A stretch of 64,000 bases of DNA from an uncultured Oscillospiraceae bacterium (GTDB lineage: Bacteria; Bacillota; Clostridia; Oscillospirales; Oscillospiraceae): positions 62,001-126,000 of the forward strand of contig CANRLF010000004.1 of assembly GCA_947631395.1 (NCBI GenBank), given 5' to 3'. Position numbers and translations under genes: made by a program. Under the pieces are notes generated by a model. It ran no database searches. It was not told where the DNA came from and saw only the letters and a list, made by a program, of their open reading frames with translations. Shown here in pieces: positions 52,889 through 60,355 of this stretch. Within the stretch, counting starts at the first letter, position 1, and each line of letters begins with the position of its first letter.

Positions 52889-54127
52889 ATGAAGAAAACC
52901 TTTGCCTCTAAGGAAAAATTTGAGGAGATCGCCGCCGAGTACGGCACGCCTGTACACGTATACGACGAGAAGGGCATCCGTGAGAACGCCAGGCGTCTAA
53001 ACAAGGCGTTTTCCTGGAACCCCGGTTATAAGGAATATTTCGCCGTGAAGGCCACCCCGACGCCGAAGATACTGAAGATCCTCAAGGAGGAGGGTTGCGG
53101 CGTCGACTGCTCCTCTCTCACTGAGCTTATGATGAGCGAAAGGTGCGGTTTTTCCGGTCACGATATAATGTTCTCCTCAAACGAGACCCCCGTGGCGGAC
53201 ATGAAAAAGGCCCGGGAGCTTGGGGCGTACATAAATCTGGACGACTACACCCATGTAAAATTTCTGAATGACATTTGCGGCATCCCGGAGTCCATCTGCT
53301 GTCGCTTCAACCCCGGCGGCGTGTTCTCGGTCGCGAACCAGATAATGGATAATCCCCGGGACGCCAAGTACGGCATGACCAGGGGACAGATGAAGAGCGC
53401 CTACCGCGATCTCCTCGCGCTGGGGGCAAAGGACTTCGGCATACACGCCTTTTTGGTATCCAACGCCACCTTCAACGAGTACTACCCCATGATGGCACGT
53501 CAGCTTTTTGAGCTGGCGGTGGAGCTACACCAGGCCACCGGGGCGCATATAGAGTTTGTGAACCTATCCGGCGGCATCGGCATACCCTATTACCCCGACC
53601 AGATAGCGCCCAATATCGAGGTCATAGCAAACGGCGTCCGGGAGGCATACAACGAGATACTTGTCCCCGCGGGGATGGGGGATGTGAAGATCTTCACGGA
53701 GCTGGGCCGTTATATGCTGGGCCCCTACGGTTGCCTCTTAACAAGGGCGGTACACGAAAAGCACATCTACAAGGAGTATATCGGCGTGGACGCCTGCGCC
53801 TGCAACCTGATGCGCCCGGCCATGTACGGGGCATATCACCACATAACTGTCCTTGGCAAGGAGAACGCGCCCCACGACCACCTCTACGACGTGGTGGGGA
53901 GCCTCTGCGAGAATAACGACAAGTTCGCCATAGACCGGGAGCTTCCGGAGATCGACATCGGGGACCTTCTGGTCATCCACGACACCGGCGCCCACGGCCA
54001 CGCCATGGGGTATAACTACAACGGCAAGCTGAGAAGCGCCGAGGTGCTTTTGAGGGAGGACGGCTCCACGGAGCTCATAAGGAGAGCGGAGACCCCGGAG
54101 GACTACTTCGCGACCATGGTGTTTTAA
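52889..54127 (+). CDS. lysA: Diaminopimelate decarboxylase-like PLP enzyme
   Basis: 412 aa of the fold-III PLP decarboxylase type. The Schiff-base Lys is in KEYFAVKATPTPKIL (about residue 54); later motifs are CRFNPGG, NLSGGIGIPY, DACACNLMRPAMYGAYHHI, and SLCENNDKFAID, which sits where CESGD is usually found and keeps the catalytic Cys. Diaminopimelate decarboxylase is the best match; a specialised ornithine/lysine-type decarboxylase is possible because the motif differs. It is a single-gene unit ending at a strong terminator. Confidence 0.82.
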   Translation: MKKTFASKEKFEEIAAEYGTPVHVYDEKGIRENARRLNKAFSWNPGYKEYFAVKATPTPKILKILKEEGCGVDCSSLTELMMSERCGFSGHDIMFSSNETPVADMKKARELGAYINLDDYTHVKFLNDICGIPESICCRFNPGGVFSVANQIMDNPRDAKYGMTRGQMKSAYRDLLALGAKDFGIHAFLVSNATFNEYYPMMARQLFELAVELHQATGAHIEFVNLSGGIGIPYYPDQIAPNIEVIANGVREAYNEILVPAGMGDVKIFTELGRYMLGPYGCLLTRAVHEKHIYKEYIGVDACACNLMRPAMYGAYHHITVLGKENAPHDHLYDVVGSLCENNDKFAIDRELPEIDIGDLLVIHDTGAHGHAMGYNYNGKLRSAEVLLREDGSTELIRRAETPEDYFATMVF

Positions 54128-54205: not shown

Positions 54206-55102
54206 TCAGGGATCAAGAGCGAAAATATCTTCAGGCCATTCCCCGGAGCTGAGTATTTCGGTACCTTTCACGTCATCATTCACCACGGTCAGTTTCCCGT
54301 CAATAAGCTTCTCCTCTGTATAATGGTTCTTCCCGTCGATAACCGATGCCGTCTGGGTGAGTATACCGATGAGAACGGCCTTAAAGTCCTGGATGGTGTA
54401 TTTCATATAGTAATGGGTCATCCCGTCCGGTTCCACGCCAATTATCTCGTTCCGTCCCTTGGAAGGTACGCCGTTAGGGATCTCCTGATAGCCCTCTACA
54501 TTGACAAAGCGGGCTGTCCCGGGGTCATACTGGAGACATGCCTCGGTCCCTATTTGTGCTCCAAAGCCCAGCTCAATGACAATATCCTCATATCCATCCG
54601 CATTCACATCCAGGATGCTGATTTTACGTATGTTATGGTGAAGGGAATATTCCTGCCTGTACTCATACCCCGACTCGCCGCACACGGCGCCTGAGGCCAC
54701 ATCGGTAACGATAACGTCAAGATGACCGTCGATCCACCAGGTATCCTCCCAGTTTTCCGGGCCGTCGAGCACGGCGCTGAACAGAAGTTCGCGGCCATTG
54801 ACGTCCAATATTCTATCCGGGTAGACATCGAAGATGCTGTCAACACGCGTTCCGGGACTCAGGTCCGGCTCGGTCTGTCCGTCGTCACCGGAGGGAGGGG
54901 AGATCTGATCGGGATCGGACTGACTGCCACCGTCGGATGGGGTATCCTCGCCCGCGTGGTCCGAGGCGCCGTCCCGCGGCGCGCCGCCATTGGCGAGGTC
55001 CGCCGCGCACGCGCAAAGGGTCGTAAGCAGGATCGCCGAGAGCACAAGAGCCAGAAGCCGCCTCCACCGCCCACCGGATAAAACACACGCGATGTTTCTC
55101 AT
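54206..55102 (-). CDS. Lipoprotein with possible FG-GAP/VCBS-like repeat
   Basis: 298 aa from the ATG at 55102 (GGGAGG ten bases upstream). An N-terminal lipobox follows a hydrophobic stretch (ALVLSAILLTTLCAC, Cys about 31). A low-complexity Asp/Ser/Pro linker follows, then a domain with DVNADGYEDIVIELGF, an FG-GAP/VCBS-like calcium motif. It is probably an envelope-anchored binding protein. Not recognised further. A good promoter faces it at 55184-55212. Confidence 0.68.
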   Translation of the reverse strand: MRNIACVLSGGRWRRLLALVLSAILLTTLCACAADLANGGAPRDGASDHAGEDTPSDGGSQSDPDQISPPSGDDGQTEPDLSPGTRVDSIFDVYPDRILDVNGRELLFSAVLDGPENWEDTWWIDGHLDVIVTDVASGAVCGESGYEYRQEYSLHHNIRKISILDVNADGYEDIVIELGFGAQIGTEACLQYDPGTARFVNVEGYQEIPNGVPSKGRNEIIGVEPDGMTHYYMKYTIQDFKAVLIGILTQTASVIDGKNHYTEEKLIDGKLTVVNDDVKGTEILSSGEWPEDIFALDP

Positions 55103-55183
55103 ATAGGTATCCTCCCGCTTTATACGTCTATACTGCCACGGATAAAACATTGAAACGGGTAAAATAAGCATTTTTATAAAATC

Positions 55184-55212: not shown

Positions 55213-55363
55213 CGGCGGTCTTAAAAAATTCACATTTACGCACCTTGTTTATATTATTTTGAAAAGATCCGGGAAGAGGAAATACTTTTGATACATTTTT
55301 GATGCAAAACATATGCCGGGTTGATGCACCCGGGGGGTATGGTTTTCCCGGAGGCGATGAAAA

Positions 55364-56407
55364 ATGTCGAAAAAGACTGTGGCGGTGCTGTTCGGGGGAC
55401 AGTCGAGCGAATACGGCGTGTCACTCCAGTCGGCGCTGTCGGTTTTGAAGAATATAAACAAGGAAAAATATGATGTGATACCTATCGGGATAACCGTGTC
55501 GGGGGACTGGTACAGGTTCACAGGGGACATAGACCGCATCGGCACGGATGACTGGTGGGAGAACGTGGGGAAGCTGATACCGGTGACGGTGTCGGTGAGC
55601 CGCTCCACCAGGGGACTTCTGGAGCTCCATGGGGCCAGGTGGAGCAGGGTGGAGGTGGACGCCGTATTCCCGGTGCTCCACGGCAGAAACGGAGAGGACG
55701 GGACCGTACAGGGGATGCTGGAGCTTGCGGGGATACCTGTCATCGGCTGTGGGACGCTGGCCTCAGCCGTGGGCATGGACAAGGAGCGGGCACATGTACT
55801 GGCGAAGGCCGCGGGAGTGGCTGTGCCAAGGTCAGTGGGATTTGTGTCGTCAAACCGCCTGCGGGCGGCGAGGAGAGCCGTAAAATTCGGGTTCCCGCTG
55901 TTTGTAAAGCCAGTCCGGGCGGGGTCGTCCTTCGGGGTCACAAGAGTCGACAGGGAGGAGGACTTGCCACCGGCCATGGACGAGGCGCTGCGCTATGACA
56001 GCAGGGCCGTTATCGAGAAGGCCGTGCCGGGCTTTGAGGTGGGCTGTGCCGTGATGGGAAAGGATCAGCTGACGGTCGGACGGGTGGACGAGATAGAGCT
56101 GGCAGGCGGGTTTTTCGATTTTCAGGAGAAATACGACACGAAAACAGCGAAGCTACACATGCCGGCCAGGATCCCCGCCGAGACGGAAAAGCGGATACAG
56201 GATACGGCAAAGACAGTCTATCGGGCGCTGGACTGCTCAGGCTTTGCAAGAGTGGACATGTTCCTGACGCCCGAGCAGGACATAGTTTTCAACGAGGTGA
56301 ACACCATACCCGGCCTTACGTCCCACAGCCGCTTCCCGGCGATGATGAGCGGAGTTGGGATCGACTTTCCGGATATGCTGGACAGGCTCCTGGAGATGTA
56401 CATATGA
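55364..56407 (+). CDS. vanG: VanG-type D-alanine-D-serine ligase
   Basis: 347 aa ATP-grasp ligase that reads like VanG: VAVLFGGQSSEYGVSLQSA, VFPVLHGRNGEDGTVQGMLELAGIPVIGC (in part about residues 101-129), KPVRAGSSFGVTRV, VGRVDEIELAGGFFDFQEKYD, and NEVNTIPGLTSHSRFPAMM. The GFFDFQEKY segment matches the VanC/E/G class that takes D-Ser, not the Ddl or VanA/B kind. It would build D-Ala-D-Ser, which weakens vancomycin binding. Upstream is a probable TTCACA/TATTAT promoter. It overlaps vanT (ATGA). No vanXY or vanRS lies in the window. Confidence 0.88.
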   Translation: MSKKTVAVLFGGQSSEYGVSLQSALSVLKNINKEKYDVIPIGITVSGDWYRFTGDIDRIGTDDWWENVGKLIPVTVSVSRSTRGLLELHGARWSRVEVDAVFPVLHGRNGEDGTVQGMLELAGIPVIGCGTLASAVGMDKERAHVLAKAAGVAVPRSVGFVSSNRLRAARRAVKFGFPLFVKPVRAGSSFGVTRVDREEDLPPAMDEALRYDSRAVIEKAVPGFEVGCAVMGKDQLTVGRVDEIELAGGFFDFQEKYDTKTAKLHMPARIPAETEKRIQDTAKTVYRALDCSGFARVDMFLTPEQDIVFNEVNTIPGLTSHSRFPAMMSGVGIDFPDMLDRLLEMYI

Positions 56408-58527
56408 GGGGCAGGGAGCCTGAGGGATACGCCGGGGTGGACCTGTTCCGCCTTATATCGGCGTTTTTGGTGGTGGCCATCCACACATCGCCGCTGGCGG
56501 ACATCACCCCGGTGGGGGATTTTGTGGTCACAAGCGTGATCGCCCGCCTTGCCGTGCCGTTTTTCTTTATGACAAGCGGATTTTTTACAGTGACGCGCTA
56601 CGCGAAGGACGCCTCGGCCTTGGCGGCATTTGAAAAAAGGACGCTCCTTGTCTATCTGGCAGCCACGGCGATATACCTGCCTGTAAATATAAGAAACGGA
56701 TATTTTACTCAGGCGGACCTGCTGACGAGGCTACTGAGGGACGTCCTTTTTGACGGGACGTTTTATCATCTGTGGTATCTTCCGGCGGCGGCGCTGGGGG
56801 CGGCCATAGCCTGGGCTCTTGTCCGCCGGGCCGATTACCCGGCGGCCTTCGCCGTGACTGGGGCCGTTTACCTTGTGGGCCTTTTCGGGGACAGCTGGTT
56901 TGGGGCGGCTGAGCCTGTGGCGGCGGGATTTTACGACGCTGTTTTTTGCCTCATGGACAGGACCAGGGTATTTATGGCGCCGCTTTTTTTCACGATGGGA
57001 GCCTTTATCCGGGACAGCCGGCGCAGGTTGCCCTGGTACGCCTCGGCGGCCGGAACGGGCGCGGCCCTGGCGCTTATGACCGGCGAGGCGCTGGAGCTTC
57101 GGGCCTTGGGTTGGGCGAGGTTTTATACCATTTACCTGACGCTGCCGATATGCGCATTCTTTATCTTTGAGCTTCTGCTCGGTACATCCAGGGGACGGAT
57201 GAGGTGGGCAAGGTCAATGGCCCTTTTGGTTTACATAATACATCCGCTGGCGATAATCGCCCTTCGGGGGGTAGCAAGGCCACTGGGGCTGTGGGAGGAG
57301 CTTATCGACGACAGCGTTGTGAATTTCCTGGCGGTATGCGCTCTGTCGGCCGTTGTGGCGTTGCCGGCGGCGCTGGTCCTGGAGCGCCTCCGGCCGAAGA
57401 AGGACCGGGCACCCACGGGAAGGGCCTGGAGGGAGCTTGACAGCTCCGCCCTGGAGCACAACGCGAGCACCATGGTGGCGCTCATGCCGGAGGGGTGCGA
57501 GCTCATGGCCGTCATAAAGGCCAACGCATACGGCCACGGGGAATTTGAGGCGGCCAGGGTCCTGGAGGCCCGGGGCGTCAGGAGCTGGGCCGTGGCCACG
57601 GCGGAGGAGGGCGTCGCCCTCCGGCGCTACGGCATACACGGCAGGATACTTGTTCTGGGATACACGCACCCCGGGCTTGCCGGGGAGCTACGGCGCTGCC
57701 GTCTGACCCAGACGGTAGTCAGCGTGGACCACGCCCGGGCGCTGAACGACACCGGGGTGAAGCTCGACGTACATCTGAAGATCGACACGGGTATGCACCG
57801 GCTTGGCGTCGGCTGGGCGGACAGTGAGGAAATAGTTGAGGTTTTCTCACTTAAAAATCTGAATGTAACAGGAGTTTATACCCATCTTGCCATGACGGAG
57901 AGCCGCGACAGGGAGGCCCAGGAGTTCACAAGGCAACAGAGGGACAGGCTCTTTGCCGCGCTAAGGGCTCTTGAGGAGGCCGGTATCGAGCTGCCGCCTT
58001 ATCACATACAGAGTACCTACGGCCTTTTGAACTATCCGGAGCTCAGCGTGGGGTATATCCGGGTGGGGCTGGGGATATACGGGGTCCTGTCGGCTCCGGG
58101 GGAGCAGACGGCCCTGCGGCCCGATCTGTGGCCGGCGTTGTCCCTCAGGGCGCGGGTGGCGCTTGTGCGTCAGGTACCGGAAGGGGAGGGGGTTGGCTAC
58201 GGAGGGCCATTCAGAAGGCCGGGGCCAGGCAGGATAGCCATCCTGCCCATAGGCTACGCCGACGGTTTTCCCCGGGAGCTCAGCGGCGGCGTGGGATATG
58301 TTCTAATCCGCGGCAAGCGGGCCCCGGTGGTCGGGGCGGTGTGTATGGACCAGCTGGCGGTGGACGTGACGGATATCCCGGAGGCCGCCCCCGGGGACAT
58401 CGCCACGGTAATCGGCCGCGACGGGGAGGAGGAGCTGACGGCCCCGGAGCTTGCGTCCATGGCCGGGACCATAACCAATGAGCTCCTGAGCCGCCTGGGA
58501 CCGAGACTTCCGGTGGTGGTGAAATAA
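56404..58527 (+). CDS. vanT: VanT-type membrane serine racemase (acyltransferase-like plus alanine racemase)
   Basis: 707 aa fusion. Residues about 1-335 are a multi-helix acyltransferase-3-like membrane part (GVDLFRLISAFLVVAIHTSPL, VPFFFMTSGFFTV). Residues about 340-707 are an alanine-racemase fold: WRELDSSALEHNASTMV, PLP Lys in MAVIKANAYGHGEFEAARVLE (about 367), GVGYGGPFRR with the catalytic Tyr area, and GAVCMDQLAVDVTD. This is the layout of VanT, which makes D-Ser for the VanG/VanC ligases, so the pair forms D-Ala-D-Ser precursors. It overlaps vanG and is followed by a strong hairpin. Confidence 0.9.
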   Translation: MRGREPEGYAGVDLFRLISAFLVVAIHTSPLADITPVGDFVVTSVIARLAVPFFFMTSGFFTVTRYAKDASALAAFEKRTLLVYLAATAIYLPVNIRNGYFTQADLLTRLLRDVLFDGTFYHLWYLPAAALGAAIAWALVRRADYPAAFAVTGAVYLVGLFGDSWFGAAEPVAAGFYDAVFCLMDRTRVFMAPLFFTMGAFIRDSRRRLPWYASAAGTGAALALMTGEALELRALGWARFYTIYLTLPICAFFIFELLLGTSRGRMRWARSMALLVYIIHPLAIIALRGVARPLGLWEELIDDSVVNFLAVCALSAVVALPAALVLERLRPKKDRAPTGRAWRELDSSALEHNASTMVALMPEGCELMAVIKANAYGHGEFEAARVLEARGVRSWAVATAEEGVALRRYGIHGRILVLGYTHPGLAGELRRCRLTQTVVSVDHARALNDTGVKLDVHLKIDTGMHRLGVGWADSEEIVEVFSLKNLNVTGVYTHLAMTESRDREAQEFTRQQRDRLFAALRALEEAGIELPPYHIQSTYGLLNYPELSVGYIRVGLGIYGVLSAPGEQTALRPDLWPALSLRARVALVRQVPEGEGVGYGGPFRRPGPGRIAILPIGYADGFPRELSGGVGYVLIRGKRAPVVGAVCMDQLAVDVTDIPEAAPGDIATVIGRDGEEELTAPELASMAGTITNELLSRLGPRLPVVVK

Positions 58528-58532
58528 TAATC

Positions 58533-58562
58533 GCCGCGGCAGAGCGTCGGTTCTGCCGCGGC
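58533..58562. terminator. Terminator after vanT
   Basis: GCCGCGGCAGA (58533-58543) pairs with TCTGCCGCGGC (58552-58562), followed by AAATTTT. It separates vanT from the opposing PadR operon. Confidence 0.85.
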
Positions 58563-58567
58563 AAATT

Positions 58568-59281
58568 TTAATAGAGATCCCAGAGGGCGTGCTCCTCGGC
58601 TATGAGATCGCCGCCCTCGCCGTAAAGTCTCAGGGAGAGGTCAACTCCCCATTTTAGGAGCGTGTCCTCGCCGTAATAAAAATCGTTCCCGAAGTGTCCG
58701 TCGACATCAAGGGCGTCCCTGTTTTGCGTATCCGATCCGAAAACGAAGGTGAACATGCCATCGATTTCGCGCATAGCCTCAAGCGTCAGGCACTCGCTGC
58801 CCGTGTCCGGATCGTCGCCGATGTACCGAAGCTCCAGCTCCGCCCGCCGGGCCAGGGGGTAGTCATCGAAAACGAAGAGGTAGTTTGGGCCTTCCGGGCC
58901 GCCGACTTGGGGACAGGCGGTGGCGAAGGTCACGCCGGGCCGCGTGTCCACCGGGAGGATGTGGGCGTCGGTGTGGGAGAAGCGGAAAATAGACCCAACT
59001 GTTTGGCGCTCGGTCACACCAAGGGCGAAGCCGTCGCCCTCACGGAGGACGTAGACGCCCTCGTGAAGCCCGTCGGAGATCGGGAGCTTCTCCACTATCT
59101 CACCGGGCCCCATGAAGGATGCCCGCTCGGCGCGGCGGAGGGCCTGCAGGCAGGTGCAGGGCTGACCGTCGCGGAGGATATACATGGCGAAGAGCATGAG
59201 CGCCGAGAGGGCGATATAAATGACAGTCTGGACTTTGGCGTTGACTCTCAGCCTGCGGAAAAAGGATTTAAACGCCATCAT
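58568..59281 (-). CDS. Membrane-anchored protein of unknown function, PadR operon
   Basis: 237 aa from the ATG at 59281, with GGGAGGTGATAGAA upstream, overlapping the preceding gene by 14 bases. One N-terminal helix (VIYIALSALMLFAMYIL, about residues 19-35) is followed by a soluble domain with a Cys pair (QPCTCLQ) near the membrane and an acidic, aromatic C-terminal half. No known domain was recognised. It is the last gene of a PadR-controlled set, so it may act with the HAAS-like protein before it. Confidence 0.6.
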   Translation of the reverse strand: MMAFKSFFRRLRVNAKVQTVIYIALSALMLFAMYILRDGQPCTCLQALRRAERASFMGPGEIVEKLPISDGLHEGVYVLREGDGFALGVTERQTVGSIFRFSHTDAHILPVDTRPGVTFATACPQVGGPEGPNYLFVFDDYPLARRAELELRYIGDDPDTGSECLTLEAMREIDGMFTFVFGSDTQNRDALDVDGHFGNDFYYGEDTLLKWGVDLSLRLYGEGGDLIAEEHALWDLY

Positions 59282-60026
59282 TTCTATCACCTCCCGGCTC
59301 CACTCTGAGACGAAGCTCACGGCCGTAGTCTGAGTACCTAAGCTCAAACCACGAAGCATCCTCAATACCCGTTACGGTTCCCTCATAATGGTCGGTGAGC
59401 GGGCCGGACCAGGCGTAGCTTATGTGCAGTGATCTATTACGGTCCCAGTCATCGTCGAGGGGCATTTTGTAGACATTGCCCCGGCTGTCCTCCACATAAA
59501 AGCCGTGGTCAAGGCTGGCCTTTTTTGACCAGGGCAGGGGCCGCCTGACATCCAGGGTGAAATAGACTGTACCGGCGGGGCCTTTGGTTACCCGGGCGAT
59601 ACCAAGGGTGTAGCCGTCAAGGTTGGCCTTGCAGTCTGGGTAGACGATAGATTGAGCGGCGGACCATATCTCGTTTTCCACGGGCCTTTGAAATCCGCCG
59701 TTGAGAGCAAAAGCCAGCAGAACGGCGGCGAACATAAGGGCAAAAATTATTAAAACGATTTTCGCCACAAGCTGTACCCGCCACCAGACGGGCTTATATA
59801 TCCCGGCAAGCTCCCGGCCGGTCTCGTTAAAGTCGCCCATGGCCCGGACCGTCATTGTCTGGGCCTCCTTTTTGCCGATACCGGCGGCCGTAAGATCGGA
59901 TAGTCTGTCCTCCATGTGGCCATAGAGCTCATTGTAGAGCTCCCGGCGGAGGCGCTTGCCCTTCACGTAGGTGAGGGCGCTCTCGCACCAGGCGGAGAGG
60001 ACAGGATCGTCCTCACGCTTTTTCAT
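59268..60026 (-). CDS. HAAS/DUF1700-like membrane protein
   Basis: 252 aa. Residues 1-80 form the HAAS-type domain of small helical pairs (YNELYGHMEDRLSDLTAAGIGKKEAQTMTVRAMGD), which often follows PadR. One or two helices (about residues 88-112) anchor a C-terminal domain rich in beta strands. The start overlaps the padR gene end by four bases. These proteins are thought to work with PadR regulators as sensors or envelope factors; the exact role is not known. Confidence 0.78.
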   Translation of the reverse strand: MKKREDDPVLSAWCESALTYVKGKRLRRELYNELYGHMEDRLSDLTAAGIGKKEAQTMTVRAMGDFNETGRELAGIYKPVWWRVQLVAKIVLIIFALMFAAVLLAFALNGGFQRPVENEIWSAAQSIVYPDCKANLDGYTLGIARVTKGPAGTVYFTLDVRRPLPWSKKASLDHGFYVEDSRGNVYKMPLDDDWDRNRSLHISYAWSGPLTDHYEGTVTGIEDASWFELRYSDYGRELRLRVEPGGDRNDGV

Positions 60027-60355
60027 GTGAGCCCCCTTACTACCGAGTCAACGGCCCGGGAAAAGGTCCGCCACTCCTGGGCCTTTTCGGAGAGGCGAAC
60101 AGCCCCTTTTTTTGTGAGGCTGTAGTATTTGCGCTCCCGGCCGCTCTCGGCCACCTTGAGGCTGGAGATGATTAGCCCATCCTTTTCAAGGGTGTGCAGG
60201 AGGGGATAGAGGGTGCCCTCCCTGAGGGAGAAGACGTTCTCCGAGCGGCGGTCAAGCTCGGAGATCATCTGGTAGCCGTACTTCTCGCCGTCTTTCAGAA
60301 GCGAGAGCACCAAAAGCGTGGTGCTGCCGGCAATGAGGGATCTGTCGATTTTCAT
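60023..60355 (-). CDS. PadR-family transcriptional regulator (second)
   Basis: 110 aa, classic PadR winged helix: LIAGSTTLLVLSLLKDGEKYGYQMISELDRRSENVFSLREGTLYPLLHTLEKDGLI (in part about residues 7-62). AAGGAGG lies nine bases upstream of the ATG at 60355. It heads an overlapping operon with the HAAS-like protein and a membrane-anchored protein. Its promoter contains a near-perfect 18-bp inverted repeat, so autorepression is likely. It converges on vanT. Confidence 0.92.
   Translation of the reverse strand: MKIDRSLIAGSTTLLVLSLLKDGEKYGYQMISELDRRSENVFSLREGTLYPLLHTLEKDGLIISSLKVAESGRERKYYSLTKKGAVRLSEKAQEWRTFSRAVDSVVRGLT

Follow-up and report, generated by a model that had tools for sequence, protein, structure and literature searches.

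A vanG-vanT pair without a VanXY-family gene in the sampled genomes of one Oscillospiraceae genus

In Enterococcus faecalis the genes vanG, vanXY and vanT are all strictly required for vanG-type vancomycin resistance (PMC4405338). A stretch of 64,000 nucleotides from an uncultured Oscillospiraceae bacterium (assembly GCA_947631395.1, contig CANRLF010000004.1, positions 62,001 to 126,000), in the following called the window, carries a vanG-type D-alanine:D-serine ligase gene followed by a vanT-type membrane serine racemase gene, and neither vanXY nor vanRS is found with them. This raises the question of what such a reduced pair does. The two genes are intact and co-linear, they are shared by all sampled members of the genus, and searches of the window genome gave neither a VanXY-family gene nor a VanR above its cut-off. 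On balance, the pair probably represents a lineage-fixed and probably constitutive supply of D-Ala-D-Ser alongside the usual D-Ala-D-Ala, which would confer no more than low-level tolerance of vancomycin.

An earlier note, made from the letters of this DNA, had recognized VanG by its D-Ser-specificity segment and VanT by its membrane-plus-racemase layout, with a four-base overlap between the genes, and all three observations were borne out (Table 1). The ligase scored 521 bits against the NCBIfam VanG model NF000091, passing the cut-off of 495, and its top match in the PDB (E 6e-135) was 4fu0, which is named D-alanine--D-alanine ligase 7 there and which we take to be the structure of VanG. Residues D242, F251 and R323 and the motif E255-K256-Y257 are kept in alignment with D243, F252, R324 and EKY, presumably the residues for D-Ser specificity in VanG. 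The same set was found at 66 of 66 loci bearing VanXY, and at loci without VanXY each column was conserved in 42 to 45 of 45. The vanG product is predicted to be a VanG-type D-Ala:D-Ser ligase with a preference for D-Ser.

In the racemase, Pfam placed Acyl_transf_3 at residues 10-320 and Ala_racemase_N/C at 346-705. The catalytic half passed the vanT-G catalytic model NF033131 (502 bits, cut-off 460) and had 4ecl, named serine racemase, as its top PDB match; the full-length vanT model NF033132 gave 572 of the 900 bits needed, a score that was reached in none of the 150 genomes of the family sample described below. Asn692 aligns with the Tyr of the Alr encoded in the same genome, and Asn was found in this column at 31 of 33 VanXY-less loci; we take Asn696 of VanTG to be the Asn that replaces the Tyr of Alr near the C-terminal end. 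vanG and vanT share four bases (ATGA) at their junction; they form an intact two-gene unit that looks coupled in translation.

VanXY, VanR, VanS and VanW were all missing among the 282 open reading frames of at least 60 amino acids in the window (single-seed phmmer, E 1e-3), which agrees with what the earlier note had said of VanXY and VanRS. That note had also suggested a search of the genome for vanXY, vanY and vanRS, as a vanXY located elsewhere might serve the pair. The window genome (G000) is a draft of 2.57 Mb in 62 contigs, 97.6% complete, with the window on contig C4. Across this draft neither PF02557, the VanY/VanXY family, nor the peptidase family PF04951 gave a match; in the family sample described below, this PF02557 model does pick up a VanXY adjacent to vanG, with 87-108 bits in 26 of 37 genomes. 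No VanR exceeded the cut-off genome-wide (best score 227 bits versus 350), and VanS was not found in the window, the only part of this genome searched for it, while related loci were probed by one seed. The sole PF01427 (VanX-type) domain of the genome belongs to an anti-sigma-like membrane protein, as its outer portion, and the gene for this protein lies next to one for an extracytoplasmic function (ECF) sigma factor. This C-terminal D-Ala-D-Ala dipeptidase domain has the H..G...D and EWWH motifs, and is predicted from hydropathy and inspection by eye to be extracytoplasmic. No cytosolic D-Ala-D-Ala peptidase was found in the window genome via PF02557, PF04951 or PF01427; other D,D-carboxypeptidase families were not searched. 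The D-Ala-type ddl is present and adjoins murF (382 bits, cut-off 289), and an alr on contig C9, separate from vanT, passes the alr cut-off. An alr-like gene was also seen between miaB and mutL (L125, 5526-6581, plus strand, contig C15), below the cut-off (139 versus 168), and the fourth PF01168 match of the genome was taken by eye as YggS.

For the comparison with relatives, a family sample of 150 genomes was used, in which VanG exceeded its cut-off in 37. PF02557 was located next to VanG in 26 of these 37 and was not adjacent in 11; in eight of the 11 it was absent genome-wide (G000, G020, G117, G049, G050, G093, G105 and G123), and these eight include all three sampled members of the window's genus. 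Both congeners, G020 (100% complete) and G117 (99%), carry the vanG-vanT pair and no PF02557. The L030 locus has the VanG most similar to that of the window, and its genome (completeness not given) likewise gave no PF02557 match. An assembly gap as the cause of the missing vanXY is unlikely, since G020, G117 and the L030 genome lack PF02557 as well. In the VanG tree, the window sequence forms a clade with L030, L110 and L111 (support 85, not starred); there is no VanXY at any of the four loci and no PF02557 in any of the four genomes. A vanXY acting from elsewhere is thus unsupported for the genus, where the two congeners and the L030 genome add to the absence of PF02557 and PF04951 from the window genome and to the predicted outside position of its only VanX-type domain. 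Beyond the genus the idea stands as a possibility for other Clostridia, as described below.

Taken together, the following course can be proposed. VanT would act as a membrane racemase converting L-Ser to D-Ser, and VanG would link D-Ser to D-Ala, so that part of the wall precursors would end in D-Ala-D-Ser. Because ddl is retained and the searches turned up no cytosolic D-Ala-D-Ala peptidase, Ddl would work alongside VanG and a mixed precursor pool would be expected at all times. Judged from gene content, the absence of VanXY would allow low-level vancomycin tolerance at most, and upkeep of the pair would probably serve wall building or another constitutive function. The pair probably arose from a vanG-type operon by loss of vanXY and of its regulators, a state common to all sampled genus members. 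The earlier note had offered an incomplete resistance set as one option and a constitutive, wall-building pair as another. The first is literally true, in that the pair lacks VanXY and VanRS of the vanG-type resistance operon and thus one of the three genes with a published requirement (PMC4405338), but the second fits best with a pair that is intact, common to the sampled genus and has no regulators alongside in the window.

The ratio of nonsynonymous to synonymous polymorphism (pN/pS) of vanG was 0.37 against G020, 0.25 against L030 and 0.41 against G117, and that of vanT 0.41, 0.37 and 0.59, respectively; these ratios are rough, because synonymous changes are numerous. They speak for real constraint on vanG and vanT, weaker than on the neighbouring genes. 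The ATGA overlap and the promoter-like and terminator-like sites flanking the pair (Table 1) also count in favour of the proposed supply.

A wider set of 94 VanG loci was assembled from the window, the best 80 of at least 577 confirmed candidates from named genomes, and 13 family loci picked for their lack of an adjacent VanXY. As L071 and L121 carry an identical VanG, 93 loci are distinct: 49 with VanXY, 27 with VanG and VanT without VanXY, six with a hexapeptide gene and VanT without VanXY, seven with VanG alone and four ending too early for a call, counts that are not an estimate of prevalence. The loci with VanG alone are L031, L071 (with the VanG of L121), L081, L082, L095, L107 and L122, and in each the contig extends more than 3 kb beyond. 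The VanG tree requires 22 changes of the VanXY state if the count is confined to VanXY-bearing loci and those VanXY-less loci that have VanT. Scoring the VanG-alone and contig-edge rows as VanXY-less gives 24 changes, 15 of them forced by starred branches, a count that the four contig-edge rows may inflate. The tree cannot distinguish gain of VanXY from its loss.

Several results weigh against the proposed constitutive supply. The window genome is only a draft, as stated above. The location of the pair is unstable: at L030, whose VanG is 75% identical to that of the window, the neighbours are different. At the G117 locus, VanG and a VanT without the AT3 domain are accompanied by a kinase resembling VanS (386 bits, cut-off 400) and a VanW-like gene (341 bits, cut-off 365). 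Against G020, the pN/pS of lysA (0.13), ftsH (0.29) and hpt (0.22) all lie below those of vanG and vanT. Outside the genus, PF02557 exceeded the cut-off at another site in 17 of the 23 named genomes whose locus has VanT and no VanXY; of the others, one has a weak match and five have none, including that of L030. In the genome of Desulfocucumis palustris NAW-5 (L076), whose VanT is without the AT3 domain, PF02557 gave just a weak and partial match of 31 bits. Three of the matches located elsewhere score 97-100 bits, like the VanXY adjacent to vanG in the family; many are probably VanY-type, and these genes were not sorted into VanY and VanXY. That VanXY has been lost from every genome with a stripped pair was consequently rejected, and since 17 of 23 such genomes elsewhere in the Clostridia hold PF02557, the VanXY-free case is firm for the window's genus only. 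In favour of the proposal, a VanR-like neighbour is rarer at loci with VanT but no VanXY (six of 24) than at those with VanXY (26 of 40; Fisher p 0.004; loci with an upstream stretch shorter than 3 kb, contig-edge loci, loci with VanG alone and a later-fetched set of 18 regions were excluded), but this link was not significant on independent pairs (eight on starred branches; median p 0.25).

It is unlikely, in our estimation, that the pair is a decaying remnant, in which vanXY and the regulators were lost by drift and vanG and vanT, having no current role, are now being lost as well. The pN/pS of the pair above that of its neighbours would agree with decay, and so would the piecemeal states among relatives, including the seven distinct VanG-alone loci, one of which (L082) is the tree neighbour of the window clade. 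A vanG set of Clostridium bolteae without a racemase has been termed incomplete and non-functional (PMC5073890). Evidence against decay comes from the full length of both genes and their catalytic residues, from pN/pS values far under 1, and from the finding that VanT is kept beside VanG in all four members of the window clade, though all four genomes are without PF02557.

Resistance working by another route, with D-Ala-D-Ala or the terminal D-Ala removed by a different peptidase, for example a D,D-carboxypeptidase or an extracytoplasmic VanX-type domain, is quite unlikely. PF01427 domains bearing VanX-like motifs do occur in all three genus members of the family sample, and in Clostridioides difficile changes in a two-component system controlling a putative D,D-carboxypeptidase offer another way to vancomycin resistance in addition to vanT (PMC11326576). 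However, the PF01427 domain lies behind a membrane segment in G000 and G020, and behind a signal/lipobox in G117, and by hydropathy and inspection by eye would have no contact with cytosolic D-Ala-D-Ala. It is also missing from five of the eight PF02557-free VanG genomes of the family, and as a general substitute for VanXY it was rejected on this count. In the window genome the two genes of the sigma/anti-sigma pair are found on contig C6 (L029, 1471-2748 and 2745-3368, both on the minus strand); the layout is repeated in G020 (L147), and G117 has the signal/lipobox variant.

A further observation concerns the membrane half of VanT. AT3 (TmAT) domains are described with an R-X10-H motif in the first membrane helix and, on the side of helix 3 that faces the cytoplasm, an RXXR motif (PMC9833829). 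For VanT, the role of the domain has been called unknown and an L-Ser transporter function has been proposed (PMC9558356), while another source describes the role as not considered (PMC12423673). The window VanT has R-X10-H as R16 and H27. Among 65 aligned VanT membrane domains, the His was found in all 65, and position 16 is R in 58 and K in seven. Candidate positions for RXXR are 109, 203 and 267, the only ones within residues 1-340 at which R..R occurs.

Acyltransferase genes were compared across 92 loci, free of duplicates, that have the catalytic domain of VanT in their vicinity. A hexapeptide acyltransferase gene was found at none of the 62 loci with an AT3-bearing VanT, and adjoins the racemase gene at 20 of the 30 AT3-less loci (e.g. 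L041, 3199-3657, from Roseburia sp. 1XD42-69, which holds a PF02557 gene elsewhere). The 62-to-30 split is no frequency, because L155 to L165 were chosen for a VanT that looked catalytic-only; L166, one of the 18 later-fetched regions, was dropped as it has no VanG. Within the family regions only, the gene was present at 13 of 17 AT3-less loci. It co-occurs with VanXY at 14 loci and is found without it at six. A plain serine acetyltransferase was rejected as its identity: six of the 20 were scanned, and all were nearest to EpsC/CysE and below the cut-offs. What we take to be the catalytic His of CysE does not align in the L041 protein, the one compared. At ten loci with neither AT3 nor a hexapeptide gene, no third acyltransferase was apparent by eye. 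On firm branches there were only six independent pairs to judge the swap by (median p 0.25), none of them opposed to it, and it is not proven beyond relatedness. No report of the swap was found in titles and abstract openings on vanT together with acyltransferase or acetyltransferase genes. The swap provides a concrete test of what AT3 does in VanT.

These findings could suggest that VanG-VanT in much of the Clostridia is a standing pathway and no resistance remnant, in which D-Ser would be placed on wall precursors and an acyl group then added to the serine, a step performed either by VanT's AT3 domain (the case in the window) or by a separate hexapeptide acyltransferase in its place, with VanXY and VanRS as optional add-ons giving inducible vancomycin resistance. 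This is very unlikely to hold, and the presence of PF02557 elsewhere in 17 of the 23 genomes whose locus lacks VanXY weakens it. Least likely of the explanations considered is that D-Ser is made or modified for a purpose other than vancomycin evasion, its hydroxyl, free or at the precursor end, being acylated by the AT3 of VanT or the replacing hexapeptide enzyme: the invariant His, the distribution of the hexapeptide gene and an AT3 role described as unknown or not considered would favour it, and the ten loci with neither enzyme, the unaligned His of L041, the small number of independent pairs and the proposed transporter function speak against it.

The constitutive supply proposed for the window pair can be likened, by description and not by sequence, to Clostridium innocuum, which is intrinsically D-Ala-D-Ser, with a chromosomal ligase and racemase and natural D-Ser wall ends. 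The vanG operon of E. faecalis BM4518 (vanURS, vanY-W-G-XY-T) agrees with the window in the VanG and VanT families, their order and strand, and differs in vanXY, vanR, vanW and vanY, which were not found beside the window pair. The vanG cluster of C. difficile (vanR, vanS, vanG, vanXY, vanT) is also chromosomal, from the Clostridia, and has a VanT with AT3 (PMC12423673); it includes vanXY and vanRS (PMC11326576), whereas the window genome yielded neither PF02557 nor a VanR above the cut-off. Gut anaerobes with partial vanG-type sets have been published before, such as vanRG-UG-G-YG without a racemase in C. bolteae (PMC5073890), and vanW, vanG and vanT as strict hits in a metagenome-assembled genome from grouse (PMC12366002). 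Unlike these two commensal sets, the window pair consists of exactly a ligase and a racemase, and two species of the genus have it next to lysA and ftsH. New here is that the stripped pair is intact and common to the sampled members of the window's genus, with no VanXY-family gene elsewhere to make up for the missing vanXY. Screens of gut metagenomes for vanG and vanT will score such pairs as vancomycin resistance although a part described as strictly required is missing. Should wall building indeed be the reason for keeping the pair, a pre-existing wall pathway may have been the core around which vanG resistance was put together, and not the reverse.

Table 1. Positions of the vanG-vanT pair, its domains and nearby features in the window.
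Feature	Position	Strand	Basis
lysA-like diaminopimelate decarboxylase gene, upstream of the pair	52889..54127	+	294 bits, cut-off 297.9
Promoter-like site 5' of vanG, TTCACA-17-TATTAT	55229..55257	+	consensus match only
vanG-type D-alanine:D-serine ligase gene (predicted)	55364..56407	+	347 aa; NF000091, PDB 4fu0, conserved D-Ser residues
vanT-type membrane serine racemase gene (predicted)	56404..58527	+	707 aa; Pfam domains, NF033131, Asn692
AT3 (TmAT) membrane domain of VanT, residues about 10-320	56431..57363	+	Pfam match 10-320; R16-X10-H27
Serine racemase catalytic domain of VanT, residues about 337-707	57412..58524	+	NF033131, Pfam, PDB 4ecl
Terminator-like stem-loop directly 3' of vanT, 13 pairs	58533..58562	+	consensus match

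Terminator-like matches number four in the region, compared to a mean of 4.2 in shuffles, and are thus not in excess. The lysA-like gene is the sole match to its family in the window genome. The order lysA, vanG-vanT, ftsH, hpt is common to the window and G020 (L110), and lysA adjoins vanG-vanT also in G050 (L114), which belongs to another genus. The window ftsH and hpt pass their family cut-offs. A tilS-like gene was recognized by eye after hpt in the window and G020; the window stretch gave no NCBIfam match at E 1e-30. A recent horizontal gain of the pair was not supported, as no clear foreign composition was seen: GC content at third codon positions is 0.75 for vanG and vanT versus 0.78-0.83 for lysA, hpt and ftsH. 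Between lysA and vanG the window has an open reading frame on the minus strand (54206-55171) that is extra relative to G020 and carries an XAC2610-family domain (38 bits, cut-off 35). On the other side of the pair, 58568-60355 on the minus strand encodes a PadR regulator and two more open reading frames, one of them with a permease-prefix domain, all convergent with vanT.

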